IMG/VR virus record: IMGVR_UViG_3300027782_000429
Coordinates: 1-21,247 of that record
Length of the DNA: 21,247 nucleotides
From: a virus
Strand: one strand, 5' to 3'
The notes under the pieces were generated by a model. The model was not told where the DNA came from, did not search any database, and worked only from the letters and a program-made list of their open reading frames with translations. This document shows positions 3,022-21,247 of the stretch, one piece after another. The translations under genes and the position numbers were made by a program. Position 1 is the stretch's first letter; each line of letters begins with the position of its first letter.

Positions 3022-3699
3022 ATGTTTAAAAAAACTCCTGTGTTAAAATATGAGTCCTCAATAGAAGCATATCAAGATTCAATAGTTCCATCAAAAAAAG
3101 TTGTACCAGATTGGTATAAAAAAATTCCAAGGTGGCAAAATGGAATGAAACCAACAGTTAAACAATGTATGCCTTTTCTTGAGTCTTTAACTATTGGTTA
3201 TTTAATTACTTTACCTTACGATGTTTTTGTTAAAAACGACAATGGTGCACTACAATTGAGTTGGCCTGATTTTGTTAAGAATCACCCCGTTTTAAGAAAC
3301 AATGTTGCAGACATAAGGCTTGTTCCAGCAGGTCACTATGCAGCAGAATTTGAATGGGATTATAATGTTGCCTACACATTACCAAAAGGTTATAGTGCTA
3401 TTTTTACTCATCCATTTAACAGAAATGATTTGCCTTTCACGACTATAACTGGAGTTATTGATGGTGGAATAGTTATGCATCCTCATGGAAATCCTGGATT
3501 TTATATTAAAGAGGGATTTGAAGGATTGATTCCACAAGGAACTCCTATAGCCCAGTTGATTCCATTTCGTCAAGAAAACTGGAAATCTAAAAAAACACCA
3601 GGTTTAGTGGAGATTGCAGAGTCCCAATCAATGGGGAAAGGACTTGTTTTTAGTGGTTGGTATAAAAAAACATTTTGGGTACATAAAAAATATGAATAA
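3022..3699 (+). CDS. phage conserved protein, cupin/beta-sandwich-like
   Basis: This 225-residue protein has the layout of a family I know from many environmental phages: P-D-W-Y-K near residue 30, T-V-K-Q-C-M-P-F, a Y-L-I-T-L-P-Y-D segment, then PKGYSAIFTHPFNR, G-V-I-D-G-G, and I-P-Q-G-T-P-I-A-Q-L-I-P-F. The predicted fold is mainly beta strands, and the family has no established activity, though a cupin-like or jelly-roll enzyme or structural protein is possible. There is no signal peptide. It has its own promoter with a leaderless start. The 237-residue protein encoded at 5919-6632 has a comparable layout and may be a remote relative. A stop followed by a ribosome site links it to the small gene downstream. 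Confidence 0.75.
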   Translation: MFKKTPVLKYESSIEAYQDSIVPSKKVVPDWYKKIPRWQNGMKPTVKQCMPFLESLTIGYLITLPYDVFVKNDNGALQLSWPDFVKNHPVLRNNVADIRLVPAGHYAAEFEWDYNVAYTLPKGYSAIFTHPFNRNDLPFTTITGVIDGGIVMHPHGNPGFYIKEGFEGLIPQGTPIAQLIPFRQENWKSKKTPGLVEIAESQSMGKGLVFSGWYKKTFWVHKKYE

Positions 3700-6889: not shown

Positions 6890-7594
6890 TTAGTAATAAA
6901 TAAGAACGCATCCAGTGCCACCTGCGCCACCACCATTGTAATTTGTACCTGCACCGCCACCGCCACCACCTTGTCCTCCTGCACCTCCTGCGTGACCTGA
7001 AGCAGCACTACCAGCAGCAATAAAACCACCGCCACCACCGCCACCATTAGAGCCAGCGCCTCCAGGATAAACACCTGCTCCGCCTGTTGCGCCAGTTCCA
7101 GAACGGAAACCAGTTCCACCGCCACCGACATAAATTCCAGCAGCGCCTGATCCACCACTAGTTCCAAAACCACCTGCTGAACCACCAACTGCTGTTAAAA
7201 ATACACTGCCTGCACCATTGGCGCTACCAGATCCACCACCACCTGAACTTCCTGCACCGCCATAAGCACCACCACTGCCACCACCTAAAGCAATAAGACC
7301 TCCAACAACAGTTGTGCCAGCACTACCTGCAATAGTTACTTCTGTTGGTGATGGAATCCACCCCATTAGTACTGCTCCTCCACCGCCACCAGAAATTCCT
7401 CCATTACTATCGTTTCCTATACCACCATTGCCACCGCCACCAACAAGTACTGCAAATACTTGCGATACTGGAAATGAAAGACCAGTTGTAGTGGTTGTAT
7501 AAGTATTACGAAGCGTTAATCCTACAGGAATTGCTGTTGGAAGTGTAGGGGGATTAGATGCTGTTGATGCTGCAGGGAATACTGTTGATGCCAT
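6890..7594 (-). CDS. glycine-rich tail-fibre/adhesin-like protein 3
   Basis: The 234-residue protein has a short N-terminal domain (MASTVFPAAS, then a T-rich region and a beta strand VSQVFAVLVGGGG), a long run of glycine-rich motifs, and a C-terminal strand G-C-V-L-I-Y-Y. Glycine-rich segments like these form packed polyglycine-II helices in phage receptor-binding proteins such as T-even gp38 adhesins, with the loops carrying receptor specificity. The gene is GC-rich and repeats GGN codons, which makes it look different from its neighbours. The start shares the AGATCTAA junction seen before the other two fibre genes. Confidence 0.75.
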   Translation of the reverse strand: MASTVFPAASTASNPPTLPTAIPVGLTLRNTYTTTTTGLSFPVSQVFAVLVGGGGNGGIGNDSNGGISGGGGGAVLMGWIPSPTEVTIAGSAGTTVVGGLIALGGGSGGAYGGAGSSGGGGSGSANGAGSVFLTAVGGSAGGFGTSGGSGAAGIYVGGGGTGFRSGTGATGGAGVYPGGAGSNGGGGGGGFIAAGSAASGHAGGAGGQGGGGGGAGTNYNGGGAGGTGCVLIYY

Positions 7595-7853: not shown

Positions 7854-8771
7854 TTATCCAATCACTACTACTACGTATCCAGAACCGCCGTTACCGCCGA
7901 GCCCACATTCACCTTGTGTGTCAAAACGAGACCCGCCGCCACCTCCGCCACCGCCAAGATTTGCAGTACCATCTGTTGCTGTTGCTGTTGTAACACTTCC
8001 TGCGCCGCCGCCACCTGAACCGCCTGCTCCACCGCCGCCAGTATTTGCATTGCCACCTCCACCGCCTCCAGAAAAAGTTGTAGAGGTTCCAGTAATTGAT
8101 GAGGCAAGACCAGCACCGCCTGCTTTACCAGCAGCACTTCCGCCACCACCGCCACCGCCACCAGCGCCTCCACCACCACCGCCTCCTGTTTGGCTCTCTG
8201 ATGTACCACCACTATTTCCTTGTCCTGCTAATGATCCTCCAGGACTTCTTGCAGCGTTATCGTTTGAACTTCCATTACCACCGCCAGAACCTCCATCGGC
8301 TGGACGTATATAGGCTCCATAAATGCGTCCACTAGAACCACTTCCTCCACCAATAGCAGAGTAAACAAGTGGAGCAAGACCAATAAAAGATGCACCACCT
8401 TGAGAAGGATTTGAATCTCTTCTGCATCTACCTGCACCAGCACCTACTCCAATAGTCTGTGTTCCGACAGGAAGATAAGCAATTTCACTGTAAAGATAGC
8501 CTCCTCCGCCACCGCCACCGCCACCAAAAGCATAAGCATTGTCTCCTGAGCCTCCGCCGCCGCCGCCTGCAATACAAAGTATTTCGGCGTAGCCAGCCTC
8601 AGTTATAGTAATTTCACCAGAACCGCTAAATTTATAAATAGTTTTACCTGGACGAGAACTAGTGTCAACAGTAGCACCACTAGAACCTGATGCTGCTGCT
8701 TTTCCTATTCCAGCAGCAAGTGGTGGGATTATAGTTGATTTTATTGTACCTGGAAATATTGATAGAGCCAT
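7854..8771 (-). CDS. glycine-rich tail-fibre/adhesin-like protein 2
   Basis: The largest of the three fibre-like proteins (305 residues) starts MALSIFPGTI, has a beta-strand region (TIYKFSGSGEITITEAGYAE), then about 200 residues rich in glycine blocks (G-G-G-G-G-G) and ends in G-Y-V-V-V-V-I-G. This is the pattern of a phage adhesin tip with polyglycine-II packing. The overlapping plus-strand frame is an antisense shadow, proline- and alanine-rich. The start follows GGAGATCTAAG, which includes the stop codon of the preceding small gene. The repeats make this gene prone to slippage and recombination. Confidence 0.75.
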   Translation of the reverse strand: MALSIFPGTIKSTIIPPLAAGIGKAAASGSSGATVDTSSRPGKTIYKFSGSGEITITEAGYAEILCIAGGGGGGSGDNAYAFGGGGGGGGGYLYSEIAYLPVGTQTIGVGAGAGRCRRDSNPSQGGASFIGLAPLVYSAIGGGSGSSGRIYGAYIRPADGGSGGGNGSSNDNAARSPGGSLAGQGNSGGTSESQTGGGGGGGAGGGGGGGGSAAGKAGGAGLASSITGTSTTFSGGGGGGNANTGGGGAGGSGGGGAGSVTTATATDGTANLGGGGGGGGSRFDTQGECGLGGNGGSGYVVVVIG

Positions 8772-8961: not shown

Positions 8962-9441
8962 CTATACCCAGTACTCAATATCAATTTTACCTGCGCCACC
9001 TGCGCCTGTGTTGTTTGGATAAAAATACCCACCAACTCCTCCATTATTTGCTGAAGAAGCCCCTGTTGCGCTTGTAGCATTAGAACCAGAACCAGTGTTA
9101 CCACCATTACCGCCAGATGCAGATGCTGCTCCAGTAAATGTTGTAGTTCCTCCAGGATTTCCTTGAGCGTTAACAGAAGCACCGCTTCCTCCTGCGCCAA
9201 TAGAATACGCAATAGAAGTGCCAGGAGTTGTTGCTAAAGTTGAAAAAATTACTGCGCCAGGATATCCATTATGGTCAATGCTATTGGCGTTATCTCCGCC
9301 ACCGCTTCCTCCACCACCCATAAGACAAACATTTACGTAAGTAACTCCAGCAGGAACGGTCCAGGAAGTGCCAGAAGTAAGAGTTGTTTTATATTCAGTT
9401 TTGCCACCTGCACTAGGGGCTGGAAATACTGTTGATCCCAT
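8962..9441 (-). CDS. glycine-rich tail-fibre/adhesin-like protein 1
   Basis: The 159-residue protein starts MGSTVFPAPSAGGKTEYKTT, then has S-W-T-V-P-A-G-V-T-Y-V-N-V-C-L-M-G-G-G-G, glycine, serine and threonine rich loops, and a C-terminal strand I-D-I-E-Y-W-V. The W-T-V-P-A-G-V strand followed by a glycine block is common in phage fibre proteins that end in polyglycine bundles. It is the first fibre gene after the Ig-like protein, and the start follows AAAAGGAGATCTAAATT, a strong ribosome site. Confidence 0.75.
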   Translation of the reverse strand: MGSTVFPAPSAGGKTEYKTTLTSGTSWTVPAGVTYVNVCLMGGGGSGGGDNANSIDHNGYPGAVIFSTLATTPGTSIAYSIGAGGSGASVNAQGNPGGTTTFTGAASASGGNGGNTGSGSNATSATGASSANNGGVGGYFYPNNTGAGGAGKIDIEYWV

Positions 9442-10111: not shown

Positions 10112-10483
10112 ATTAAGGTTTGTAGCAAATGTGGGCTTAACTTAGATAAGTCCCAGTTTTCTCCATCTTCTGGTGGAAAGTACTTAAGGCCAGAGTGTAG
10201 GTCTTGTGCTTCCAAATTGGCAAAGCAAAGGCTAGAACTAAGGAAGGTTTGGGGTTATCCAGAAGAAGATCACGTATGTCCTATCTGTTTAAAGAATGAA
10301 CAAGAACTCAAGGGTACTGGAGGAAATGCCAGCATCTGGGTAGTAGATCATGACCATATCACTAATAGTTTTAGAGGTCATATCTGCCACAACTGTAATC
10401 GTGGCCTTGGTGTATTCCAAGACAATGTTGATAGATTAGAAAGAGCAATCAACTACTTAAGCACCAGTAGCCAAGTTGGTTAA
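10112..10483 (+). CDS. recombination endonuclease VII family protein with probable ATT start
   Basis: The protein has an N-terminal zinc ribbon C4-x2-C7 and C29-x2-C32, then C-P-I-C, D79-H-D-H82, R-G-H-I-C-H-N-C-N and D-N-V-D-R-L, the hallmarks of phage endonuclease VII (T4 gp49 type), which resolves branched DNA such as Holliday junctions before packaging. The zinc ribbon precedes the first usual start codon, TTG at 10217, so the 88-residue frame from there lacks the first metal site. ATT at 10112, right after TAA, opens the full 123 residues, with AAGG eight bases upstream. The end of the gene runs 23 bases into the following tRNA; its stop codon TAA (10481-10483) lies in the tRNA's D loop. 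Confidence 0.75.
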   Translation: MKVCSKCGLNLDKSQFSPSSGGKYLRPECRSCASKLAKQRLELRKVWGYPEEDHVCPICLKNEQELKGTGGNASIWVVDHDHITNSFRGHICHNCNRGLGVFQDNVDRLERAINYLSTSSQVG

Positions 10484-10534
10484 GGCACCGAACTCATAAT
10501 TCGGCTATCGTAGGTTCAAGTCCTACCTGGTGTA
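10461..10534 (+). tRNA. tRNA with CAT anticodon (Met, or Ile2 reading AUA)
   Basis: The 74-base cloverleaf has acceptor GCACCAG paired with CTGGTGT (one G-U), D stem GCC/GGC, anticodon stem CCGAA/TTCGG around loop CTCATAA (anticodon CAT, 10495-10497) and T stem GTAGG/CCTAC. The initiator signs (C1-A72 mismatch, three G-C pairs by the loop) are absent. If position C34 is lysidylated it would read AUA codons, which are common in this AT-rich phage. CCA is not encoded. Confidence 0.85.
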
Positions 10535-10538
10535 CTAA

Positions 10539-10611
10539 ACCTATGTAGTTCAGTGGACAGAACACAGGACTTCTAAGCCTGGTGTCGCAAGTTCGATTCT
10601 TGCCATAGGTG
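10539..10611 (+). tRNA. tRNA-Arg (TCT anticodon)
   Basis: The 73-base cloverleaf has acceptor ACCTATG/CATAGGT, D stem GTTC/GAAC, anticodon loop CTTCTAA (anticodon TCT, 10572-10574), T stem GCAAG/CTTGC and discriminator G. One anticodon stem pair (position 31-39) is an A-G mismatch. It would read AGA and AGG, frequent arginine codons in this window. Confidence 0.85.
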
Positions 10612-10612
10612 C

Positions 10613-10639: not shown

Positions 10640-11596
10640 TTGGCTAATATAGTTTTTCTTGGCAATTTTGAAGTGTCTTATAGTAGTGAGAATCATCATG
10701 CTAGTAGTCTAGAGTCTTTAGGCCATACCGTGACAAAATTGCAGGAGCGTAAGGCCAAGACACAAACCATCCTAGAAAAAGCATCAACCTCTGATCTATT
10801 TATCTGGGTACACACACATGGCTGGGAAACCATTGGTAACATTACAATGGATGAAGTTCTTAAGCAACTAAACGCCTCTGGTGTGCCTACAATGACATAC
10901 CATCTGGACCTTTGGTTTGGCTTAGATCGTCAGAAAGATCTCAAGCATGATAGTTTTTATAGAACTATTGGACACTTTTTTACTGTAGATAAACTTATGG
11001 CTGATTGGTTTGATCACAATACCGCAGTAAAAGGCCACTTCATGCCTGCGGGAGTATACGATAAGGAATGTTACATCCACCCAGACTACGACACACAAAA
11101 CTTTGAGTACGATGTTATTTTTGTTGGCAGCAAGAGATATCACCATGAACATAAATATCGTCCAGAACTAATTGACTTCTTAAGAAAGACATATGGCAAA
11201 CGATTCCTTCACGTTGGTGGAGATGGCGACACAGGGACTATCCGTGGGGATGCATTAAACCGTATCTATGCTAAGAGTAAGATTGCAGTTGGAGATAGTC
11301 TTAACATAGGCTTTGAGTATCCCTATTACACTAGTGATAGATTGTTTGAGTCTACTGGTCGTGGTGGTTTTACCATCTACCCAGAAATTAAGGGACTAGA
11401 TGAATACTTTATGCCTGATGAAGTTGTGTTTTATAAGCATGGAAACTTTAATGACTTAAGAGATAAGATAGATCAGTATCTTGAAAACTCTTTGGTAAGA
11501 GAAAGAATCAGAGTCAACGGTCACAGCCGCACAAAGAAAGAACACACTTATGTCCATAGATGGACTGCAATCTTAGAAGAGTTGGGTATTAAATGA
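10640..11596 (+). CDS. CgeB-like GT-B glycosyltransferase
   Basis: The 318-residue protein starts MANIVFLGNFEVSYSSENHH, a GT-B N-terminal Rossmann fold opening, has a W-V-H-T-H-G-W segment, then D-V-I-F-V-G-S-K-R near residue 155 and R-L-F-E-S-T-G-R-G-G-F near 235, which matches the C-terminal sugar-donor domain of the CgeB/Glyco_trans_1_2 family. It starts at TTG with GGGG six bases upstream. Its stop overlaps the start of the epimerase gene (ATGA). A nucleotide sugar would be its donor; the acceptor may be another sugar, a protein or a surface polymer. Confidence 0.8.
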   Translation: MANIVFLGNFEVSYSSENHHASSLESLGHTVTKLQERKAKTQTILEKASTSDLFIWVHTHGWETIGNITMDEVLKQLNASGVPTMTYHLDLWFGLDRQKDLKHDSFYRTIGHFFTVDKLMADWFDHNTAVKGHFMPAGVYDKECYIHPDYDTQNFEYDVIFVGSKRYHHEHKYRPELIDFLRKTYGKRFLHVGGDGDTGTIRGDALNRIYAKSKIAVGDSLNIGFEYPYYTSDRLFESTGRGGFTIYPEIKGLDEYFMPDEVVFYKHGNFNDLRDKIDQYLENSLVRERIRVNGHSRTKKEHTYVHRWTAILEELGIK

Positions 11597-12480
11597 ATTG
11601 CTTAGTAACTGGAGGAGCAGGCTTCATTGGATCTAATCTGGTTGATAAACTTATAGACCTTGGTCATAATGTTATTTGTATAGATAATGAGTCAGCAGAG
11701 TGTCATGAGCAATTTTACTGGAACCCAAAAGCAAATAATTATAAATATGATATATGTGACTATAACAAGATAGAACATTTGTTTAATGGAATTGACTATG
11801 TATTTCATATTGCATCTGATGCAAGAATTCAACCAGCAATCCTAAACCCTAGAAAATCTATTGAATCTAACGCAGTTGGAACCGCCAATGTATTAGAACT
11901 ATCTCGCTTAGCAAAGGTAAAGAAGTTTGTTTATTCTAGTACATCTTCTGCTTATGGCAAGAAAGCAATACTTCCAAACATAGAAACGCAGGCATCTGAC
12001 CCACTAACACCATACTCTGCTGCAAAGGTATTTGGTGAAAACCTTGCAAGAGTCTACTATAATCTTTATGGACTAGAGACCATCTCTCTTAGATACTTTA
12101 ATGTATATGGAGATAGACAGCCATTAAAAGGTCAATATGCACCAGTTATAGGTTTATTTTTAAAGCAACATGAAGAAGGTAAGCCACTAACAGTTGTTGG
12201 AGATGGATCTCAACGCAGAGACTTTACACACATATCTGATGTAGTAGAAGCAAACATTCTTGCATCTGAAGTAAGTCATGGCTTTGGTGAGGTATATAAC
12301 ATTGGGTATGGAAGTAACTACTCTATAATTGATATTGCTAATATGATTTCAAACGATGTTAAGTTTATCCCGTCAAGAATTGGGGAAGTGCAAGAAACTC
12401 TTGCATCTAATGAAAAGTTTAAGGGTTTAACGGGATGGACACCAAAGGTATCTTTAATGGATTGGTTACAAGATGACTGA
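11593..12480 (+). CDS. NAD-dependent nucleotide-sugar epimerase/dehydratase
   Basis: The 295-residue protein is an extended short-chain dehydrogenase: T6-G-G-A-G-F-I-G13-S NAD motif, D31 binding the adenosine ribose, Y-S-S-T-S-S-A-Y-G (residues 114-122), catalytic Y141-S-A-A-K145, then R-Y-F-N-V-Y-G and R-D-F-T-H-I-S-D-V. It belongs with UDP-glucose 4-epimerase (GalE-like) and related epimerase or dehydratase enzymes and would supply a sugar nucleotide to the transferases around it. The start overlaps the previous stop as ATGA, and its end overlaps the methyltransferase gene by 8 bases. The precise substrate cannot be read from the sequence. Confidence 0.85.
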   Translation: MNCLVTGGAGFIGSNLVDKLIDLGHNVICIDNESAECHEQFYWNPKANNYKYDICDYNKIEHLFNGIDYVFHIASDARIQPAILNPRKSIESNAVGTANVLELSRLAKVKKFVYSSTSSAYGKKAILPNIETQASDPLTPYSAAKVFGENLARVYYNLYGLETISLRYFNVYGDRQPLKGQYAPVIGLFLKQHEEGKPLTVVGDGSQRRDFTHISDVVEANILASEVSHGFGEVYNIGYGSNYSIIDIANMISNDVKFIPSRIGEVQETLASNEKFKGLTGWTPKVSLMDWLQDD

Positions 12481-13186
12481 AATGAGAAAAGTAATAATCA
12501 ATGGTGAGTTTGAGATTACTCTACCAGAGCATCGTGCTGCACGTCCTGATTGGTATCAACCACATGGTTGGGAAAAGCCAAGACTAAAACACATGTCTGA
12601 AAATATTTTTTCTGGAGATGTTATGTATTATGTTGGTGCAGAAGAAGGCGAGTTTGCTGCACTATGCCAAATGTGGGGTGCGGAAGTAGTTGTATTTGAG
12701 CCAAACCCCAAAGTCTGGTCACACTTTCCATTGCTTTGGAGTGCAAACAATTTAGATCTTCCAATGGTTTGTATTCCTGGATTTGCATCTGATAAGATAA
12801 ACAGTCTTTCAAGAATATATTATAATGAATGGCCACCAGAAGTTAACGATGTAATTGAAGCAGCCCATGGATTCAAAGAACTATACCTTGAAGGAGAAAC
12901 CTATGGTCAGATTACTATAGATTCTTGTGTATATGATCATGGTATTAAGCCACCTACCGCCATCTCCTTGGACGTAGAGGGTAGTGAATGGAGGGTCCTA
13001 GGAGGGGCTGAGAGGGTGCTTAGAGAGCACAAACCAAAGATTTGGCTATCTGGACACCCTGAGTTCATGCTACAGCAGTGGGATGAATCTTTATATAATC
13101 TTAGACAATGGATTAAAGGATTAGGTTATACTGAAATAATTTTAGACTATCAGCATGAGGTTCACTTATACTATGAATCAATATAA
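12473..13186 (+). CDS. FkbM-family methyltransferase
   Basis: The 237-residue protein contains the SAM-binding motif G-A-E-E-G-E-F (variant of GxxxG, following Y-Y-V), E-V-V-V-F-E-P-N-P-K, and the later A-I-S-L-D-V-E-G-S-E-W-R-V-L-G-G block, which are the signature of FkbM methyltransferases. These O-methylate sugars or lipids, often in glycan biosynthesis. The opening (RRAARPDWYQPHGWEK area) is shared by some phage and cyanobacterial versions. Within this operon it would methylate a sugar made or transferred by the neighbours. It overlaps the epimerase by 8 bases and the next gene by 14 bases. Confidence 0.85.
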   Translation: MTEMRKVIINGEFEITLPEHRAARPDWYQPHGWEKPRLKHMSENIFSGDVMYYVGAEEGEFAALCQMWGAEVVVFEPNPKVWSHFPLLWSANNLDLPMVCIPGFASDKINSLSRIYYNEWPPEVNDVIEAAHGFKELYLEGETYGQITIDSCVYDHGIKPPTAISLDVEGSEWRVLGGAERVLREHKPKIWLSGHPEFMLQQWDESLYNLRQWIKGLGYTEIILDYQHEVHLYYESI

Positions 13187-14027
13187 CGCATACTTATATT
13201 CTCATGATGGAAAAGATTATGCAAGCGACAAGTGGGACTATGGATTAATAAAAGAAATATTTGATAAGTACGAAGTTAATCAAATAAAAGTTACAAAGAT
13301 TCCAGAAAGTGAGAAAGCCTTTGTTGTAATTCCTGGACCTCAAACTGCTGGCAATGAAGATAGACTATCTAAGGAGTTAAGTAAAATCTCTAGAGTTGTT
13401 TTATTTATTAATGGAGATGAGAATGCTAGGTTTGATGTAAGTAAAATTAGGCATAATAATATTGAGATATGGATTCAATACCCTCATGAAAAGCATGATC
13501 AATATAACAAGATGCCAATTGGAGTTCCACAGCACTTAAGTGATAATTCTCCAGAATACAAAGAAAAAGAATACGATGTTTATTTTGGTGGACAGATTAC
13601 TCACCAAAGAAGGGTAGAGTTATCTCATGTTATGCCAAACCTAAAGAATTCTTTGTATGGACCAACAAAAGGTTTTTCACAAGGAGATAAACCAAAAGAC
13701 TACTATGCCAAACTTGCAAGTGCAAAAATTGCACCATGTCCATCTGGTGCAGCAGTAATAGATACATTTAGATTTTTTGAGTCAATAGAGTTATTAACGT
13801 TGCCAGTAGCAGATACAATAAATCCAAAAGGAATACAGACAGATTTTTATAAAAACATGTTTGGAGTTAATGTTCCATTTAACTATGTATCAAATTGGAA
13901 TGAACTTAATAAATTAGTTCCAAAACTATTAGATCAGTATCCAAATAATATGCACCAAGTAGTATGTTGGTGGATCAAACAAAAAAGAGATCTAGGAATT
14001 AAGATTATGAGGCAGATAAATGCATAA
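13173..14027 (+). CDS. GT-B-like, exostosin-like glycosyltransferase candidate
   Basis: The 284-residue protein has an N-terminal Rossmann-like region, then Y-D-V-Y-F-G-G-Q-I-T-H-Q-R-R near residue 135, followed by K-D-Y-Y-A-K-L-A-S-A-K-I-A-P-C-P-S-G, and T-F-R-F-F-E-S-I-E-L-L-T-L-P-V. That last section is the pattern of exostosin-like and GT-B donor-binding domains (F/Y-x-x-x-x-R, P-x-G, R-x-x-E-S/A). The alternative ATG at 13155 lacks a ribosome site, so I use 13173. It overlaps the methyltransferase gene by 14 bases and the following gene by 8 bases. No sugar specificity can be assigned. Confidence 0.6.
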   Translation: MNQYNAYLYSHDGKDYASDKWDYGLIKEIFDKYEVNQIKVTKIPESEKAFVVIPGPQTAGNEDRLSKELSKISRVVLFINGDENARFDVSKIRHNNIEIWIQYPHEKHDQYNKMPIGVPQHLSDNSPEYKEKEYDVYFGGQITHQRRVELSHVMPNLKNSLYGPTKGFSQGDKPKDYYAKLASAKIAPCPSGAAVIDTFRFFESIELLTLPVADTINPKGIQTDFYKNMFGVNVPFNYVSNWNELNKLVPKLLDQYPNNMHQVVCWWIKQKRDLGIKIMRQINA

Positions 14028-14781
14028 AAGAGATGTAACTATTATTCTTGCAACATCAATAATTCCAGGGCACCCAAGTACAGACATGATAGATGAAACT
14101 ATTAAATCTATTAGGCATCACTTTCCTAATAATGAAATTATAATGCAAATTGATGGATTAAGATCAGAACAGTTGCATCGCAAACAAGATTATGATGAAT
14201 ACAAAAATAGAATTTTATGGAAGTGTCTTCACCAATATAAAAATGTTTTGCCAATTATATTTAATAAGCATAGCCATCAAAGCACAATGCTAAAGCAGAC
14301 TATCAATCTTATAAATACACCTTGCCTTCTTTATGTTGAAGGAGATGCTCCACTTACACCCGATGTTGAGATTGATTGGGACAAATGTTTAGATATGATT
14401 GAGTATGGAAAAGCAAATACAATTAGATTTCATTTTGAGTCATCAATACCTGAACCTCATAATCATTTGATGTTTGGATTAGAGGATGGATTTATGAAAA
14501 CATCTCAATGGAGTCAAAGGCCACACCTATCTACTGTTGAATACTATAGAAAAGTTATTCTTCCAGAAGTAGAAGATTTTGCTTTTATTGAAGATACTAC
14601 ACACGGAAGAGTTCAAGATGATATTTCTCCATACGGTGTATTCTCTGAGGATGGATGGAATAAGCATAAGTTATGGATATACCATCCAGAAGGAAACATA
14701 AAGAGATCTTATCATCTAGATGGTCGTCAGGGTACAAGAAAGTATACTAGTGATGACCTTACTTGGGGGTATTCTGAATGA
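14020..14781 (+). CDS. GT-A (GT2-like) glycosyltransferase
   Basis: The 253-residue protein starts with RDVTIILATSIIPGHPS, a GT-A nucleotide-binding opening, has E-T-I-K-S-I-R-H-H-F-P, then the D-x-D-like E-G-D-A-P-L-T-P-D near residue 108, and later E-D-F-A-F-I-E-D and Y-H-P-E-G. The family is distant from well-known GT2 enzymes but the order is right. The start overlaps the previous stop by 8 bases; the end overlaps the next start by 4 (ATGA). It would transfer a sugar onto the same glycan as its neighbours. Confidence 0.7.
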   Translation: MHKRDVTIILATSIIPGHPSTDMIDETIKSIRHHFPNNEIIMQIDGLRSEQLHRKQDYDEYKNRILWKCLHQYKNVLPIIFNKHSHQSTMLKQTINLINTPCLLYVEGDAPLTPDVEIDWDKCLDMIEYGKANTIRFHFESSIPEPHNHLMFGLEDGFMKTSQWSQRPHLSTVEYYRKVILPEVEDFAFIEDTTHGRVQDDISPYGVFSEDGWNKHKLWIYHPEGNIKRSYHLDGRQGTRKYTSDDLTWGYSE

Positions 14782-15812
14782 GAGTTGGAATGATTGCAAG
14801 ATGTGATGATACTGGCCTTGGCAATCAAACCAGGGAATTAGTTAACATGCTAAACCCTGATAAAATTATGCTTATTAATTCAAAATTTTTTAATGAAAAT
14901 AAACAACATCCTGAGTGGTATGACGGATATAACTATACTGCTACACTAAAAGGTTTTCCAACAACTGCTGAGATAGCAAATTTTATCACAGATGTTGACG
15001 TAGTTATTAGTTGTGAGACATTTTATAGTCCAAGATTTATTGATTTAGCAAGACACCGTGGTATTAAAACAATACTTCAATATAACTATGAGTTCTTTGG
15101 AAACCTTGTGCATACAGAGTGGTCACTTCCAGACGTTCTTGTTGCCCCAAGCCTATGGAATATGGATAAGATAGTTGAACGTTTTGGTGATAAATGTAGG
15201 GTTGTTTATCTACCCCCACCAACAAACCATGAAAACTTTAAGAATGCAAAAGAAAACAATATGTCAAAGAGTCATAATCGTATAATACATATTGGTGGTA
15301 AGGCTGCAGTTAAAGATAGAAATGGCACTAACTCTGTCATAGAGATGCTTAAGTATTCTGAGGGAGATTACGAAGTTGTAATTAAAACTCAAACTGACTT
15401 AGGTATTAGAAATACTAATGAAAGACTAACCATTCAAACCAATACAACAATGGAGCCAGAAGATCTATACTCTGGCTATGATGCAATGGTATTACCTAGA
15501 AGGTATGCTGGACTATGTTTACCTATGAATGAGGCTCTTCTTAGTGGGCTACCTGTTTTTATGCCCCGCATTTCTCCAAACAATGCCATCCTTCCTGATA
15601 AATGGACGGTAGAGGCAAGTAAGATTGATGAGTTTAAGGCTAAGGCTGTTATTGATGTGTATAATATTGATGCAAAAGCCCTTGCAAAAACACTTGATGA
15701 GTATATGGAAAAGAAAGATAATTTAATTAAACAAGAGGCATTTGATCTTGGTTTTCTTAATTTTTCAACAGAGTCATTAAGAGATAAATATATAAACTTA
15801 ATTAACTCGTAA
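14778..15812 (+). CDS. GT4-like glycosyltransferase
   Basis: The 344-residue protein is a GT-B fold enzyme: opening MRVGMIARCDDTGLGNQTRE with the G-x-G-N-Q acceptor-side loop, a V-A-P-S-L-W-N-M-D segment typical of the domain boundary, V-V-Y-L-P-P-P, then H-I-G-G-K-A-A-V-K-D-R-N-G and the donor-site block LPRRYAGLCLPMNEALLSGLPV, where E is the ribose-binding residue. It is the last gene of the plus-strand glycan operon. An ATTACGAA octamer is embedded at 15367. It ends close to a bidirectional hairpin, facing the minus-strand operon. Confidence 0.85.
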   Translation: MRVGMIARCDDTGLGNQTRELVNMLNPDKIMLINSKFFNENKQHPEWYDGYNYTATLKGFPTTAEIANFITDVDVVISCETFYSPRFIDLARHRGIKTILQYNYEFFGNLVHTEWSLPDVLVAPSLWNMDKIVERFGDKCRVVYLPPPTNHENFKNAKENNMSKSHNRIIHIGGKAAVKDRNGTNSVIEMLKYSEGDYEVVIKTQTDLGIRNTNERLTIQTNTTMEPEDLYSGYDAMVLPRRYAGLCLPMNEALLSGLPVFMPRISPNNAILPDKWTVEASKIDEFKAKAVIDVYNIDAKALAKTLDEYMEKKDNLIKQEAFDLGFLNFSTESLRDKYINLINS

Positions 15813-15843
15813 AACAAAAAAGCCAGCCTATCTCTAGACTGGC
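15811..15843 (-). terminator. rho-independent terminator of the membrane-protein cassette
   Basis: On the minus strand GCCAGTCT, loop AGAGAT and AGGCTGGC (plus-strand 15843-15822) form an 8-bp stem with one G-T pair, followed by TTTTTTGTTTT. This is a strong terminator for the minus-strand genes; the hairpin could also help to end the converging plus-strand operon. Confidence 0.8.
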
Positions 15844-15860
15844 AATTCTGTAAGTAAATA

Positions 15861-16145
15861 TTACTTCTTTGGTGCTGCCTTCTTAGCAACAGCCTTCTTA
15901 GCAGCCTTCTTTACAGGTGCCTTAGCAGCCTTCAGAGCCATCTCTACAGCCTTAGCATCTGGCAAGATACCAAAAGCCTTGTCGTTAGGATTGATTGCTC
16001 TAATTGCAACTGGTGCAAGTGCTGCTACAAGTGCAGTCCATAGATCCTTTGGATCTGTTACGCCTGCCATGTATAGTGCAAGGCCTGATGCAAGGACTGA
16101 ACGTCCATATGATGCAAGTAGTGCCTTTAGTTGTTCTGTGTTCAT
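15861..16145 (-). CDS. holin-like membrane protein with lysine/alanine tail
   Basis: The 94-residue product starts MNTEQLKALLASYGRSVLAS and has one or two membrane-compatible helices (YGRSVLASGLALYMAG and TALVAALAPVAIRAI), followed by a Lys/Ala-rich tail (K-K-A-A-K-K-A-V-A-K-K-A-A-P-K-K). This combination, plus the XapX-type protein and a promoter upstream, is what holins of actinophages look like: a hydrophobic section that forms lesions and a charged C-terminus in the cytoplasm. The ATG at 16145, after AGGAGGAAAA, is far better than the upstream ATG at 16274, which would overlap XapX. No endolysin is visible in the window. Confidence 0.6.
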   Translation of the reverse strand: MNTEQLKALLASYGRSVLASGLALYMAGVTDPKDLWTALVAALAPVAIRAINPNDKAFGILPDAKAVEMALKAAKAPVKKAAKKAVAKKAAPKK

Positions 16146-16153
16146 TTTTCCTC

Positions 16154-16312
16154 CTAGGATAGAACCTTTATTAGTATAGCATATCCAGCCCATAGCCCTA
16201 CAATTCCTGCGACTCCCGCAAAAACTGGTGGTGCTGGGACTGGCAATTTGAATGCAGCAAATACTACGCCACATCCAAAACCTGTTAGTGTTGACAACAA
16301 TATATCTCTCAT
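16154..16312 (-). CDS. XapX-domain small membrane protein
   Basis: The frame from ATG 16312 to TAG encodes 52 residues: a helix TLTGFGCGVVFAAFKL, then PVPAPPVFAGVAGIVGLWAG. The P-V-P-A-P-P-x-x-A-G-V-x-G-I-x-G sequence is the hallmark of XapX (DUF1427) proteins. XapX-type genes are found in several actinophages close to holins. ATGA at 16309-16312 shows overlap with the upstream gene. Confidence 0.75.
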   Translation of the reverse strand: MRDILLSTLTGFGCGVVFAAFKLPVPAPPVFAGVAGIVGLWAGYAILIKVLS

Positions 16313-16755
16313 TGTTTTATTTCATCCTCTGGCAATAGTGTTTTTAATTCTTTATATGCTTTTGATATATTTTTCATAGATGGATAGTCTGGTCTTGACA
16401 TAGAAAGCGCCTCTCCATATTCATCAAAGTGAGATATATCTGCATCAACATCACTAACAAACTTAGTTAATCCTTTTTGAACACTTTCAATATATTCAAA
16501 TGCCCATAGTCTAGAATCAGAAAGAAACTTAATAAAGTTTTCTTTATGTATTGAATCATCTGAATCTTCTTTTATCTTTGTAGACTTAGTTATATCAACA
16601 TACTCTTGAAGCAAAGTCTTTTCAATAAAAAGTTTTGAAACATCTCTTTTAAGTTTAATGGACTGTCTTAAAACTAATAGGTATGATGCTGCAAAGCAAA
16701 CTGACAATGTTGCAAAAACAACAATAAAAATATCTTTCATATCACCACTCCACAT
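16309..16755 (-). CDS. N-terminal membrane-anchored helical protein
   Basis: The 148-residue product has a membrane helix near residues 9-29 (FIVVFATLSVCFAASYLLVL), then a charged, mainly helical tail (IKLKRDVSKLFIEKTLLQEY ...). The ATG at 16755 lies six bases after a perfect TATAAT and so fits a leaderless mRNA; the ATG at 16740 has a GGAG about nine bases upstream and would give 143 residues. It is the first gene of a three-gene membrane cassette (with XapX and the holin-like protein), and overlaps the XapX start. It could be a lysis accessory or signalling protein; the family is not recognised. Confidence 0.65.
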   Translation of the reverse strand: MWSGDMKDIFIVVFATLSVCFAASYLLVLRQSIKLKRDVSKLFIEKTLLQEYVDITKSTKIKEDSDDSIHKENFIKFLSDSRLWAFEYIESVQKGLTKFVSDVDADISHFDEYGEALSMSRPDYPSMKNISKAYKELKTLLPEDEIKQ

Positions 16756-16761
16756 GTTTTA

Positions 16762-16790
16762 ATTATATCCTAACACTACGGCTTTGTCAA
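16762..16790 (-). promoter_or_regulatory. perfect sigma70 promoter for the membrane cassette
   Basis: On the minus strand TTGACA (plus-strand 16785-16790), a 17-base spacer and TATAAT (16762-16767) match the consensus exactly. The -10 box ends six bases before the ATG at 16755. The promoter overlaps the end of the preceding GT gene, so it separates the lysis-like cassette from the upstream operon. Confidence 0.75.
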
Positions 16791-17690
16791 ACTATAAAAA
16801 TCTTTAAAGTTAGTATTAGTAAAGATCTCATACTCAGCAAGGGTTCTAACGTTTCCAGCACCAAACACACCTTCTTCTTCACCACAAAGAATTCTTTTTT
16901 GTTTGTTATATGATATTTCTTCTATTTCTTTCCAAGATATTCCACGTAGATTTCTATCTTTCCATATCTTACTATATCCTCCACGAGAATAAAAGTGGTA
17001 TACAATATTTTTTGAAGGAGAGTATATGTCCCATCCCCTTGTCCATGACCTCATAGCAAAGCAAACCTCTTCACCAAAGAAACTAATTTCTGAATCATAG
17101 GGCACTTCATTAACTATTGAACCATCTGAAAACATAAAGCCACCAAGGACTGTCTCAGAAAGTTCTGGGTTTTCTTTTAGTTTACTATCAAACTCAAATC
17201 TTTCTGCTGTCCATTGCTTTCTTTTATTTAATAATATCCTTTGTCTAGTTGGATATGACTTTATTTTTGGATTATTTTTAACTAAAAACATACCGCCATT
17301 TCTTTCTGGCTCGTATGGGGCTGGAAAGTATGACAATAATACACGACTATGACTAGATATATTCTTAGCCCTATTTAACTGATCAATACATATTGCATCC
17401 CAACCAGGAACAAACCTTGTATGTGAATCAATTTGAAGAAAATACTCTTGCCCAGAGTATAGTTCCATTGCTTTTGCTCTTGCAAATCCTGCACCTTTTG
17501 CCTCTTTTGGATGCATCTTGATTAAGGACATGTTTTTAATTGTGTTAATGTCAAATAGTTCTGAGTCAACCCCTTGATGAACAACCCCAAAATATAGGTT
17601 GTCTGGATTGTTAGCATTTTCAATAGCACTTTTAATTGTCCACTGAAGTTCTGGATCACGATAAGATGCAATAGATATAAATATTCTCAT
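16776..17690 (-). CDS. GlcNAc-transferase-like glycosyltransferase
   Basis: The 304-residue protein starts RIFISIASYRDPEL, followed by T-I-K-S-A-I-E-N-A-N-N-P-D and F-G-V-V-H-Q-G. It carries D88-S-H90 for metal and nucleotide sugar binding in the F-L-Q-I-D-S-H-T-R-F segment, F-F-G-E-E-V, and Y-H-F-Y-S-R. This is the pattern of Pfam GlcNAc transferases (Skp1-GlcNAc transferase type), which use UDP-GlcNAc. It shares one base with the halogenase's stop (TAATG), showing coupled translation. It probably glycosylates a protein, a glycan or a small molecule related to the halogenated product. Confidence 0.8.
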   Translation of the reverse strand: MRIFISIASYRDPELQWTIKSAIENANNPDNLYFGVVHQGVDSELFDINTIKNMSLIKMHPKEAKGAGFARAKAMELYSGQEYFLQIDSHTRFVPGWDAICIDQLNRAKNISSHSRVLLSYFPAPYEPERNGGMFLVKNNPKIKSYPTRQRILLNKRKQWTAERFEFDSKLKENPELSETVLGGFMFSDGSIVNEVPYDSEISFFGEEVCFAMRSWTRGWDIYSPSKNIVYHFYSRGGYSKIWKDRNLRGISWKEIEEISYNKQKRILCGEEEGVFGAGNVRTLAEYEIFTNTNFKDFYSLTKP

Positions 17691-19219
17691 TAAATATAAA
17701 CGGTATCTCTTAAAAATTCATAATGTGTGGGAGACTTTTTAATAATTTTTGCCCATTCATTTATTTTAATAGATCTAGCATCTGAAAGTATTTTCATTTG
17801 TTTTTTAATATTTATTCCTTTTTGATGAGATATGATTTCTAGATCTGTTAAGAAATAATTTCTAAAACCCCACCCCATGGGAACAGAAGAAATATGTTTA
17901 CCATAAAGATTATACAAGTATTCTAAAAGTTTGTCTGAAGACTCTTTTGATGTTATTGATTTCCAATATTCAGTATCATTTCTTTGTGACATAAAATAAT
18001 GTAGCGCAACAAAAAGATATTGATTTTCAAAATTTCTAAAAGATCTTATGTTATATCTATCTATATCAAATTGAGTTATAATTCCATCTCTTTGTAATGA
18101 ATCAACAAGAAACATAGCAAACATATGAACTTGTGCCAGTCCAGTGCTTTCAAGTGGCTCTAAAAATCCAGCAGCAAGACCAAGAGCAACAACATTTTTT
18201 ACCCAAAACCTTTTATAATGACCATTTTTAATTTGAATTTTTCTAAATTCCATATTTTTAGACCTGTTTGGATTATAGCAAACCATGTTTTTTGAGTCTA
18301 AATGTTTTTTAAATTCATCAAGTGCAGAATCTTCATCTATAAAATCAGTATTAAAAACATAGCCAGATCCAATTCTTGACCATAATGGTGTATTCCATAC
18401 CCATCCATTTCCTAATGCGGTTGCATTTGTAAAAGTTTGCATTTCTTTGTTCTTGTCAGTATACTCAATTGGTGCTGCATATGCAGCATTATTTGGTAAT
18501 AACTCTCTCGTTGATATAAATTCTTCTTTCATAAATCCACCAAGTAGTATACTTTTAAAACCAGAACAATCTACAAACAAGTCTGCATAAATTTCTCTGC
18601 CATCTTCCAATTTTAGATACTCTATACCGTTTTCATTACCAGAAATATCTACAACAGTTCCAATCACTCTGCTAACGCCACGTGGTATTGCATAATTGTC
18701 TGCAAGCCAAGAACCAAAAAGAGATGCATCAATCTGATAGGCTATATCACGAGATGGCTTAAAAGGATACATATCTATATTATCTTGCATAAATACTCTG
18801 TTAGTATATAATGATTCTGATTGTGGATAATAATATTTAACAAAATTGTCATCAGGTATTTCTGGATTTATTGCCTTAAGAACTTGCCAATCCATTAAGC
18901 CACTATCTGTTTCTTCTAGGTTTGGCAAACCAAATGTATAAAAAACTGTAGAGTTATCATTTTTAACAAAGTTTGTAAAACCTAGTCCAACTTTTAATGA
19001 TCCATTGACATCTTTTAAAAAATCACGGTGCGATATTCCTAAATAAGATAGCCATTCTACAAACTCAGCAATAGTGCTTTCACCAACTCCTACTGTTGGT
19101 ATTGATGAACTTTCAACAAGTGTTATTTTTTTATTTGGGAATGCCCTTATAAGAGTTGATGCAGACATCCATCCAGCGGATCCTCCACCAAGAACTACAA
19201 TACTCTCAACTTTGTTCAC
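17690..19219 (-). CDS. flavin-dependent (tryptophan-type) halogenase
   Basis: The 509-residue protein has the FAD motif G11-G-G-S-A-G16-W, P-T-V-G-V-G-E-S-T (41-49), a putative catalytic lysine K76 in S-L-K-V-G-L-G-F-T-N-F, D-C-S-G-F-K-S (217-223), the halogenase signature in the form W273-V-W-N-T-P278, and E354-P-L-E357-S-T-G. Lys and Glu correspond to the K79 and E346 of PrnA that hold HOCl and orient the substrate. The signature normally reads WxWxIP; here T replaces I. It would use FADH2, O2 and a halide to halogenate an aromatic compound. Start is GTG, overlapping the upstream stop (GTGA). No flavin reductase is nearby, so a host reductase must supply FADH2. Similar genes are known in cyanophages. 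Confidence 0.85.
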   Translation of the reverse strand: MNKVESIVVLGGGSAGWMSASTLIRAFPNKKITLVESSSIPTVGVGESTIAEFVEWLSYLGISHRDFLKDVNGSLKVGLGFTNFVKNDNSTVFYTFGLPNLEETDSGLMDWQVLKAINPEIPDDNFVKYYYPQSESLYTNRVFMQDNIDMYPFKPSRDIAYQIDASLFGSWLADNYAIPRGVSRVIGTVVDISGNENGIEYLKLEDGREIYADLFVDCSGFKSILLGGFMKEEFISTRELLPNNAAYAAPIEYTDKNKEMQTFTNATALGNGWVWNTPLWSRIGSGYVFNTDFIDEDSALDEFKKHLDSKNMVCYNPNRSKNMEFRKIQIKNGHYKRFWVKNVVALGLAAGFLEPLESTGLAQVHMFAMFLVDSLQRDGIITQFDIDRYNIRSFRNFENQYLFVALHYFMSQRNDTEYWKSITSKESSDKLLEYLYNLYGKHISSVPMGWGFRNYFLTDLEIISHQKGINIKKQMKILSDARSIKINEWAKIIKKSPTHYEFLRDTVYI

Positions 19220-19449
19220 TTGTCTAATGCCTCTCTCGTAACTAAAACAATGGCACCTTCAGCCTCTAGTGCATTTTTTAATTTTACCACATATTGTAAT
19301 GCCTGTATTTTATCATCATGAACCATCTTTGCAAAAACGTATTCGTTTAGTTTAATTGTAAAAAAGTGCTCGTTATCAATCAACTCTACGTTAAAGCCTT
19401 TTGGAGGAATGATAGAGTGAAAGGCCCTACGCATTTGATCTGTATACAT
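19216..19449 (-). CDS. conserved hypothetical phage protein (77 residues)
   Basis: The product from ATG 19449 reads MYTDQMRRAFHSIIPPKGFN, V-E-L-I-D-N-E-H-F-F-T-I-K-L-N-E, and a helix K-I-Q-A-L-Q-Y-V-V-K-L-K-N-A-L-E-A-E-G-A. A compact alpha/beta fold is likely. A six-residue longer start exists at 19467, but TAATG overlap with the preceding gene and GAGAAGAG nearby favour 19449. It ends with GTGA shared with the halogenase start, so the two are coupled. Function unknown. Confidence 0.7.
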   Translation of the reverse strand: MYTDQMRRAFHSIIPPKGFNVELIDNEHFFTIKLNEYVFAKMVHDDKIQALQYVVKLKNALEAEGAIVLVTREALDK

Positions 19450-19664
19450 TACTCTTCTCGTTTCCAATGAAGGTATGATTTAATATAAACAGCAGCATAA
19501 GCCAAGGCACTAAATATAAAACCATATTGGTCTGTGATTAAGGCATATGCTATCCACAAACATTCATTGAATAACAAAACAAACCATCCCCAGATGGTCT
19601 TGCGACCAACAAAAAAGATTCCTGTTACTCCTATGACGGCAAGAAGCCATGACCAATATTGCAT
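19449..19664 (-). CDS. small polytopic membrane protein
   Basis: The 71-residue product has three hydrophobic stretches: YWSWLLAVIGVTGIFFVG, TIWGWFVLLFNECLWIAYAL and YGFIFSALAYAAVYIKSYL, ending in HWKREE. The W-G-W and lone G-R-K motif with Q-Y-G-F recall PnuC- or SWEET-like small membrane proteins carried by actinophages; a transport function is not shown. It overlaps its neighbours by one base at each end (TAATG). Confidence 0.65.
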   Translation of the reverse strand: MQYWSWLLAVIGVTGIFFVGRKTIWGWFVLLFNECLWIAYALITDQYGFIFSALAYAAVYIKSYLHWKREE

Positions 19665-19948
19665 TATTTCTCCATTGTCAATGCTTGCCAGGTGTTAGCC
19701 CAGTCTTGCTTAGTTTTATGTTTATTAAACTCTCTAGATATATTTCCAAGTTCAAGGAATACACCACCCCATACACCATACTCTTTACCAGAAACACCAT
19801 TAGCAAAGCAAACCTTTGATACTGGACATCTTTGACACATTGAATCTACAATTGGGCGTACATCTACATTGTCTTCATACTTATCAAAAAAGATATTAGT
19901 ATCAAGACCCAAGCATACGGCTTCATCTTTCCATAAATGTTGTTTCAT
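19664..19948 (-). CDS. WhiB-like iron-sulfur transcription factor
   Basis: The 94-residue product carries C12, then C38-x2-C41-x5-C47, the four cysteine ligands of a [4Fe-4S] cluster, followed by the family turn G58-V-W-G-G62 and a charged C-terminal helix. These are the defining features of WhiB-like (Wbl) proteins, which exist only in Actinobacteria and their phages and act through the principal sigma factor. Phage examples include WhiBTM4, which interferes with host WhiB2. The C-terminus lacks a long basic DNA-binding tail, so it may act by sigma binding or competition. It starts directly after the stop of the gene at 19949. Confidence 0.9.
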   Translation of the reverse strand: MKQHLWKDEAVCLGLDTNIFFDKYEDNVDVRPIVDSMCQRCPVSKVCFANGVSGKEYGVWGGVFLELGNISREFNKHKTKQDWANTWQALTMEK

Positions 19949-20158
19949 TTACTGACCGTATTTGTTTGGAATATCCCAACCATTACGATCAAGGTTAAAG
20001 GTTTTTTGTAGGTACCATGCATTTTTTACACGCACTCCGCTTGGAGATGTTCTTGCAAGGTCTGATCTCTTACGCTCTACAACGTCCCAACCAACCCACT
20101 CAAGTTCTTTATTCTTTGAAACAATCTTTTCCATGTGTGCTAACGAATTAATTATCAT
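19949..20158 (-). CDS. conserved hypothetical phage protein (69 residues)
   Basis: The product begins IINSLAHMEKIVSKNKELEW, continues with G-W-D-V-V-E-R-K-R-S-D-L-A-R-T, and ends with K-N-A-W-Y-L-Q-K-T-F ... G-W-D-I-P-N-K-Y. It resembles a small family I associate with actinophages, of unknown function; basic and aromatic residues suggest nucleic-acid contact. It lies directly before the WhiB-like gene. Confidence 0.65.
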   Translation of the reverse strand: MIINSLAHMEKIVSKNKELEWVGWDVVERKRSDLARTSPSGVRVKNAWYLQKTFNLDRNGWDIPNKYGQ

Positions 20159-20171
20159 TGTATTCTTTCTT

Positions 20172-20522
20172 TTAGTAACGGAAGATTCCCACTTCTACAT
20201 TTTTTGATTCTGCAAAAGTAGTTAATTTTGATACTGGCTCTTTAGGTTTGCTAAGAAATGCAAAATAGTTTACTTGATCCATGTTGTCATGTACCCAACT
20301 TTCTGGAACTTTATAAAACTTTATCTTACGACCCCTTGCTTTCATTCCTCTTTCTGAAAGGTTTGAAAACTCTGAAACAAAAGAATTAATCTTTGTTGGA
20401 CCAACAGAATAAATTATAAAATCTTTTTCTTCTTCCTTCATTCCAGATAAAGCAACACTTATAGCACGAAGGAATAGGTTATAGTCATCAAACTCATTAG
20501 TTCCCTGTACTGCCACTATCAT
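20172..20522 (-). CDS. Rossmann-like (SLOG-type) hypothetical protein
   Basis: The 116-residue product begins MIVAVQGTNEFDDYNLFLRA, then D-F-I-I-Y-S-V-G-P-T-K-I-N-S-F-V, G-M-K-A-R-G-R-K-I-K-F-Y and a late F-A-F-L-S-K-P. The opening strand with V-Q-G-T and the following helix look like SLOG/YspA-type nucleotide or ligand-binding Rossmann domains that sense nucleotide derivatives. The match is by pattern only. It overlaps the upstream gene by 26 bases. Confidence 0.55.
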   Translation of the reverse strand: MIVAVQGTNEFDDYNLFLRAISVALSGMKEEEKDFIIYSVGPTKINSFVSEFSNLSERGMKARGRKIKFYKVPESWVHDNMDQVNYFAFLSKPKEPVSKLTTFAESKNVEVGIFRY

Positions 20523-20913
20523 TTAGTTTCCCATTCTTTAAGTTATCCAGGATGAATAACATCTTATCTATTTCTCTCTTTGACATTTTAGTTGTATCTA
20601 AAGGTCTTCCAGTTTCTGGTCTGACCTTTCCATCTACTGTATCTCCAACATAGAACATGTTATTTGATACCCAATATGCCTTTTGATCTATTATGACTAC
20701 CTTAGTTGTTTGTTTATCTTTCCAAATTTTGGACTGAGATGTAACAACTTTTTCATCAAAAATGTCTTTAAAGAAAAAATCTTTTAATATATTATGCATA
20801 TCGCTTTGACGATATAGCACTTTACTAAAAGACTTTTTTCTTTTTTTGTTCATTACTATAATTATAGATGAAAAAGAGATCAATGTCAAGCCGATAATTA
20901 AAATAGCCTGCAT
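20497..20913 (-). CDS. membrane-anchored hypothetical protein (138 residues)
   Basis: An N-terminal membrane helix (ILIIGLTLISFSSIIIVM) is followed by a basic stretch (NKKRKKSFSK) and a soluble domain with strand-rich V-V-I-I-D-Q-K-A-Y-W-V and a C-terminal helix (R-E-I-D-K-M-L-F-I-L-D-N-L). It would stay in the cytoplasmic membrane with the domain inside. AGGAGAAAAA precedes ATG 20913. No family recognised. Confidence 0.65.
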   Translation of the reverse strand: MQAILIIGLTLISFSSIIIVMNKKRKKSFSKVLYRQSDMHNILKDFFFKDIFDEKVVTSQSKIWKDKQTTKVVIIDQKAYWVSNNMFYVGDTVDGKVRPETGRPLDTTKMSKREIDKMLFILDNLKNGKLNDSGSTGN

Positions 20914-20925
20914 TTTTTCTCCTAA

Positions 20926-21105
20926 TTATTTAGTTGTTTTTTCTGATGTTTCTTTTTTTAGAGCATTTTGATCTGAAACTAATTGAGAAGAGATAAACTT
21001 ATTTAGTTTTATCTGTGTCTGCAAAAATGTAAACTCTACATCTGACGCTCTTTGCTTATAAAATGTTAGCAGTTGTCTTAATTCATCAATCGTTAAATCT
21101 TCCAT
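20926..21105 (-). CDS. 59-residue helical hypothetical protein
   Basis: ATG 21105 follows AAGGGGGAATAAAT. The product is a largely helical protein (EDLTIDELRQLLTFYKQRA ... TQIKLNKFISSQLV) with a lysine-rich, polar end, suggesting a coiled-coil or partner protein. Its ribosome site overlaps the stop of the upstream partial gene. No family recognised. Confidence 0.65.
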   Translation of the reverse strand: MEDLTIDELRQLLTFYKQRASDVEFTFLQTQIKLNKFISSQLVSDQNALKKETSEKTTK

Positions 21106-21107
21106 AT

Positions 21108-21247
21108 TTATTCCCCCTTAAAACTAAATGGACTTCCTTGCCAAACCTTTTCTGTCTTGTTTTTTTCACGTTCAACGATGCTGCGACTCCATGAGAAACC
21201 AGCATCTCCACCCCAAGCATCCCACATTATTCTTCCATTTGATGGAA
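21108..21247 (-). CDS. C-terminal end of a phage protein (partial)
   Basis: The frame is open from the window edge to TAA at 21108-21110 (45 residues), reading RIMWDAWGGDAGFSW, S-R-S-I-V-E-R-E and a C-terminal G-S-P-F-S-F-K-G-E. The (W/L)-W-G-G-D-A-G-x-x-W motif recurs at the C-terminus of uncharacterised phage proteins. The start lies outside the window. Confidence 0.65.
   Translation of the reverse strand, partial: PSNGRIMWDAWGGDAGFSWSRSIVEREKNKTEKVWQGSPFSFKGE

Follow-up and report, generated by a model that had tools for sequence, protein, structure and literature searches.

The record analysed here is a viral contig of 21,247 bases with a GC content of 37%, and the whole of it is referred to below as the window. 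An 8,516-base contig (L001) duplicates positions 12728-21243 of the window at 100% identity. The features of interest are listed in Table 1. At their centre is a tight run of genes on the minus strand, consisting of a WhiB gene, a gene for a 71-amino-acid protein, a small gene recognised by the motif MYTDxMRxAFHS, a flavin-dependent halogenase (FDH), a PF11397 glycosyltransferase and two small genes. The stop of the MYTDxMRxAFHS gene overlaps the halogenase start (GTGA), and the halogenase stop and glycosyltransferase start share one base (TAATG). Homologues of the MYTDxMRxAFHS gene lie one to three genes upstream of the halogenase in six loci. Proteins like that encoded at 15861-16274 are found downstream of the halogenase in three relatives (L017, L018 and L021), and no family match to it was seen in Pfam or PHROG. 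A cassette of sugar and surface genes converges on the run from the opposite strand.

Table 1. Features of the window, in order of position.
Feature	Position	Strand	Basis or remark
HNH-type endonuclease-like gene	2542-2928	+	PF01844
DUF6065-like protein, dUTPase-like predicted fold	3022..3699	+	Halogenase-neighbour family HMM, E 3e-46
Three glycine-rich fibre/adhesin-like proteins	6890-7594, 7854-8771, 8962-9441	-	Composition; 7854-8771 matches phrog_2295, E 2e-30
HNH-type endonuclease-like gene	10217-10483	+	Cys/His pattern only
tRNA-Met(CAT) and tRNA-Arg(TCT), in tandem	10461-10612	+	Ahead of the sugar cassette
Sugar/surface cassette: Glyco_trans_1_2, NAD-dependent epimerase, FkbM methyltransferase, further glycosyltransferase-like genes	10640..15812	+	PF13524, PF01370, PF05050; phrog_28745, phrog_540, phrog_8156; further glycosyltransferase matches weak
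Small clade-conserved protein, holin-like by appearance only	15861..16274	-	Downstream of the glycosyltransferase
GlcNAc-transferase-like glycosyltransferase	16776..17690	-	PF11397, E 4.7e-58; phrog_24687 glycosyltransferase
Flavin-dependent halogenase, VirX1-type	17690..19219	-	509 aa, GTG start; PF04820, phrog_2928, 6qgm
WVWNTP, codons 273-278 (WxWxIP position, T277)	18386..18403	-	Sequence and translation
Small conserved gene MYTDxMRxAFHS...	19216..19449	-	ORF open from 19467; homologues in 6 loci
71-aa hydrophobic protein	19449..19664	-	NMN_transporter-like, PF04973 E 1.8e-5, under gathering score
WhiB-family transcription factor (host marker)	19664..19948	-	PF02467, E 3.2e-11; phrog_472, E 1e-12

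The original prediction of a phage-borne FDH with all of its key motifs is borne out. The reading frame has no internal stops and matches the Pfam profile PF04820 (Trp_halogenase) with an E value of 1.2e-97 and 328 bits, against a curated cut-off of 21, and PHROG_2928 (tryptophan halogenase) with an E value of 9.1e-130. These family matches exclude chance, and the halogenase gene is real. The motif GGGSAG at residues 11-16, conserved among relatives, corresponds to the GxGxxG dinucleotide-binding motif. K76 and E357 are at the residues given in the original prediction; K76 aligns with K79 of PrnA, E357 with E346, and Y94 and F96 with H101 and F103. All active FDHs are reported to carry the tunnel motif FxxPxxSxG (PMC8407142), which the window protein has as F352, P355, S358 and G360 within FLEPLESTG. 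Across the 127 sequences of our tree, K76 is invariant, E354 and P355 occur in all rows, and E357 is kept in 124; in a few homologues, Q or D replaces the catalytic glutamate. Apart from that of its own sister contig, no sequence found is more than 54% identical to the window protein, which has kept all of the catalytic residues at about 50% divergence from its clade mates. Judged by its sequence, the gene encodes an intact FDH and is a further member of a known viral halogenase group.

An AlphaFold (AF2) model of the protein, built on 35 aligned sequences, had a pLDDT of 92.3 and a pTM of 0.90. The six highest Foldseek ranks were all VirX1 chains (TM about 0.9; E 7.7e-52 and TM 0.92 for the best), followed by PyrH, PrnA and Thal, and in a sequence search of the PDB, VirX1 (6qgm) was again the best match (E 5e-88). 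In a tree of 127 sequences, obtained by a quick search with SH-aLRT values rather than bootstraps and with seven long branches flagged, the window halogenase fell within a 71-row clade that includes VirX1 (SH-aLRT 100). The clade is made up of viral sequences and one MAG-derived sequence; PrnA and 34 of the 35 cellular FDHs lie outside it. Within it, an eight-row subclade with a support of 100 unites the window with L014-L017, L021, L022 and L023, and L018, a near relative of L017, had been dropped from the tree as redundant. Fold, motifs, catalytic residues and clade are read directly from the sequence and the model. Phylogeny and structure prediction were among the checks proposed with the original prediction, and both place the enzyme with VirX1 and not with non-halogenating monooxygenases.

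Two records in the tree call for comment. The MAG-derived member of the viral clade (L095, JABDFK010000005.1) is an 84-kb deltaproteobacterial contig that may itself be phage. Conversely, the halogenase of L094 (MT835646.1, 'Bacteriophage sp.', from human faeces) pairs on very short branches with an enzyme of Sphingomonas pseudosanguinis, and the record may be bacterial DNA. A scan of IMG/VR with the single halogenase sequence recovered only the sister contig, and an alignment-based scan was required to recover further relatives there; at least 589 FDH relatives were confirmed in uncultured viral contigs.

The original prediction also drew attention to an altered signature at the WxWxIP motif. 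The alteration is genuine, in that both tryptophans and the proline are kept (W273-V-W275-N-T277-P278) and the strict isoleucine is absent, but it is not special. Counted over 112 distinct viral homologues, this position holds I 84 times, T 19 times, V eight times and S once. One of the two seeds of the collection scan was GWVW[ND][IT]P, a pattern biased towards I and T at the expense of V. Threonine is found in six of the seven clade mates and in the cultured Synechococcus phage S-B64, in none of the 35 cellular rows, and requires at least seven changes on the tree. T277 as a unique signature is therefore ruled out, and from these sequences it is a recurrent viral variant, not damage. Variants of WxWxIP, and even its absence, occur in active FDHs (PMC8407142). 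Since the equivalent isoleucine lines the substrate pocket of another FDH, CHEESY1 (PMC12645471), T277 may, by analogy, affect the substrate, and rate or specificity may differ.

VirX1 from cyanophage Syn10 (PDB 6QGM), an iodide-preferring viral FDH, has been characterised both biochemically and structurally (PMC8407142), and annotations of halogenases in cyanomyovirus genomes go back at least to 2010 (PMC2984593, PMC3037559). A broad range of substrates and a trimeric form count among the further traits of the VirX1 type. The window enzyme shares with VirX1 its fold, the catalytic lysine and glutamate, the F.P.S.G motif, the viral clade, a phage genome, a C-terminal PTHYEFLRDxxY match and the lack of a Trp-binding C-terminus. 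It differs in being about 35-39% identical, in the T for I at the Trp motif, in belonging to a separate sub-clade, in its WhiB-bearing phage as opposed to a cyanomyovirus, and in having a glycosyltransferase as neighbour where VirX1 has tandem halogenases. In many viruses, a single locus holds at least two divergent halogenases (L026, L031, L035, L045, L053, L072, L087, Syn10 in L005 and P-TIM40 in L008). The halogenase of Synechococcus phages S-B64 and S-H35 also reads WVWNTP and is homologous over its full length (38.5%), but these are cyanophages with another gene context, outside the eight-row clade. PrnA and RebH share the FDH core, the K79 and E346 equivalents and the fold (TM about 0.83); they differ in lying outside the viral clade, as found for PrnA, the one tested, and in their C-terminal Trp-binding stretch, to which the window protein has no match.

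A parallel in gene content is the lake actinophage DSL-LC01 (Actinomycetia phage, OQ999401), in which a halogenase is followed by a glycosyltransferase and adjoined by WhiB. Halogenase and WhiB have thus already been published together for a freshwater actinophage (PMC10611076), and the pairing in the window is not new. However, the two halogenases are only 24% identical and sit on different branches of the tree, and the DSL-LC01 glycosyltransferase belongs to family 2 (GT2), not PF11397. We therefore rejected the idea of one operon shared by descent: as far as sequence comparison goes, the loci are alike in content, and descent as a single operon is not supported.

WhiB is restricted to actinobacteria and their phages (PMC6802176, PMC10611076), and in our 14-genome control the WhiB model matched only in Corynebacterium (C. 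glutamicum). The actinobacterial host proposed from the WhiB gene is thereby supported, and the host of the window virus is probably an actinobacterium. The same WhiB gene lies near the halogenase in L013/L014, L018 and L019-L021, and WhiB is present in the records of L014, L016, L018 and L021; it was not found for L015, L022 and L023, whose contigs are short, or for L017, represented by a 42-kb fragment. The best match of the phage tRNA-Arg was 88% in 296 genomes from the phylum of Streptomyces olivaceus (L150), a set that had no outgroup control.

The explanation of this gene that we favour, and consider likely, is an intact halogenase of the two-component, FADH2-dependent type that belongs to the viral VirX1 clade and has predicted activity. 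By analogy with the biochemistry of PrnA and VirX1, we suggest that a host flavin reductase would supply FADH2 and that the enzyme would form a flavin hydroperoxide, which bound halide would attack to give hypohalous acid. The acid would travel through the internal tunnel marked by the FLEPLESTG motif to K76, from which the halogen would be put on an electron-rich aromatic compound with the assistance of E357. The absence of a flavin reductase nearby, as originally stated, holds for the window genes scanned against Pfam and PHROG and is normal for the group: in a set of 12 related phage records, which span 17-129 kb and include several fragments, none had a match over the cut-off, and DSL-LC01 had one sub-threshold match. 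We accordingly discarded the idea of a reductase hidden elsewhere in the larger relatives. FDHs can use host reductases (PMC8407142).

This reading has competitors. The enzyme could be a true tryptophan halogenase, making free halo-tryptophan as an antimetabolite or a natural-product precursor, as the Pfam and PHROG family names, an identity of about 36% to the PrnA core and the presence of PrnA among the top structures might imply. However, the match to PrnA stops at PrnA residue 409, before the C-terminal Trp-binding stretch, which is absent from the group C FDHs, including VirX1 (PMC8269204); the protein groups with VirX1 and not with PrnA; and the window has no recognised tryptophan or natural-product pathway genes. 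Because the Trp-binding part of PrnA is unmatched, free tryptophan is probably not the aromatic target, and we regard this alternative as improbable. Only marginally better is the case for a non-halogenating FAD monooxygenase or a decayed halogenase, for which the missing reductase and the change from I to T, in a motif thought to block monooxygenation, could be cited. Its chances appear small when every catalytic residue is kept at such divergence in a frame free of stops, T277 recurs across intact viral FDHs and the fold equals that of VirX1.

The proposed coupling of the halogenase and glycosyltransferase genes stands as far as their overlap and the PF11397 match are concerned, but a halogenated and glycosylated product is poorly supported. 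Of the 12 other halogenase-carrying records searched, only L014 and L021 share PF11397 with the window; the ten without it rule it out as an obligate partner. A halogenated glycan product is speculative, since just two of those 12 records have the glycosyltransferase. Its close homologues in phages come from Xanthomonas and Stenotrophomonas phages (320-385 kb), which do not appear among the listed halogenase matches, and a PDB search with its sequence gave zero matches.

To place the halogenase in a broader context, we counted neighbouring genes by distance in 67 deduplicated viral halogenase loci, drawn from L013-L092 and L003-L012. Genes for 2OG-Fe(II) oxygenases (PF13640/PF13759) made up 28% of genes at distance one compared with 4% at a distance of eight or more; no oxygenase of the modelled families was found in the window. 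Glycine-rich or collagen-like genes, assigned by a composition rule only, accounted for about 9-13% at distances two to four (13% at two to three) compared with 2% at eight or more. The DUF6065-like family reached 7% and 5% at distances of one and two genes, against 1% far away, and its members are immediate neighbours of the halogenases in Syn10 (VirX1), S-CREM1, P-TIM40 and Sf-FP1. Further members were seen at L005:5574-6362, L013:2404-3132, L014:4449-5189 and L021:10087-10785, and we found no mention of DUF6065 in the literature searched. Carbamoyltransferase genes of the NodU/CmcH type lie near viral halogenases at nine loci, including L024. A 'MAHFAxID' gene, considered as a marker of halogenase vicinity, showed no distance decay after deduplication and was set aside. 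The decay with distance controls for general abundance in these genomes, but either a common function or a common insertion hot-spot could produce it. The recurrence of 2OG-Fe(II) oxygenases, glycine-rich fibre genes and the DUF6065-like family with its dUTPase fold may be the new part of these results.

What the enzyme acts on is a matter for more tentative suggestions; for VirX1, no native substrate is given in the literature searched. One possibility, for which the gene neighbourhood is the sole basis and in whose favour we count the neighbour decay, is that the target is a surface or virion component, modified by the halogenase while the phage infects an actinobacterium; we hold it with low confidence. 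The halogenase would belong to a group of tailoring enzymes, with glycosyltransferases in the window and 2OG-Fe(II) oxygenases in the relatives, sited by fibre genes. In the window, roughly 8 kb separates the fibre genes from the halogenase, and the same neighbour pattern could arise because diverse moron genes collect near tail genes. A specific version of this role, which does not rival the chemistry and to which we give a similarly low likelihood, is halogenation of virion fibres or host-surface glycans by a post-translational or post-assembly cassette that includes 2OG-Fe(II) hydroxylases and the PF11397 glycosyltransferase. It gains from the strong distance decay of the oxygenases and the glycine-rich or collagen-like genes, from the DSL-LC01 halogenase, which adjoins collagen-like genes and a glycosyltransferase, and from the overlap of halogenase and PF11397 genes in the window. 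PF11397 is named for the (Skp1) hydroxyproline GlcNAc-transferase (Pfam/CAZy GT60). Against this version are the scarcity of PF11397 among halogenase-carrying viruses, the different glycosyltransferase family in DSL-LC01, the requirement of FDHs for electron-rich aromatic substrates and the tendency of tail regions to accumulate unrelated morons.

A nucleotide or DNA-base halogenase acting with the DUF6065-like neighbour is far less credible. The family does adjoin VirX1 and other phage halogenases, its S-CREM1 member is annotated as a 'triphosphate nucleotidohydrolase', and the top 50 Foldseek matches to the model of the window protein were all dUTPases or dCTP deaminases. However, these matches had a low TM of 0.3-0.4 to a moderate model (pLDDT 73), the family occurs in just 16 of the 67 loci, and the window gene is 14 kb from the halogenase on the other strand.

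In returning to a surface or virion role, we would also put forward, as a long shot, that halogenase, 2OG-Fe(II) hydroxylases and hydroxyproline-type glycosyltransferases act together to halogenate either the glycine-rich or collagen-like tail fibres of the phages themselves or the receptor to which these bind. If this were true, enzymatic halogenation would tune adsorption or block superinfection. The recurrent neighbours provide concrete partner genes for asking what phages halogenate, and the window enzyme, whose pocket carries the natural variant T277, is a candidate biocatalyst. Viral halogenases have mostly been described from marine cyanophages; the gene reported here extends the VirX1 clade to WhiB-bearing phages, which are probably phages of actinobacteria.
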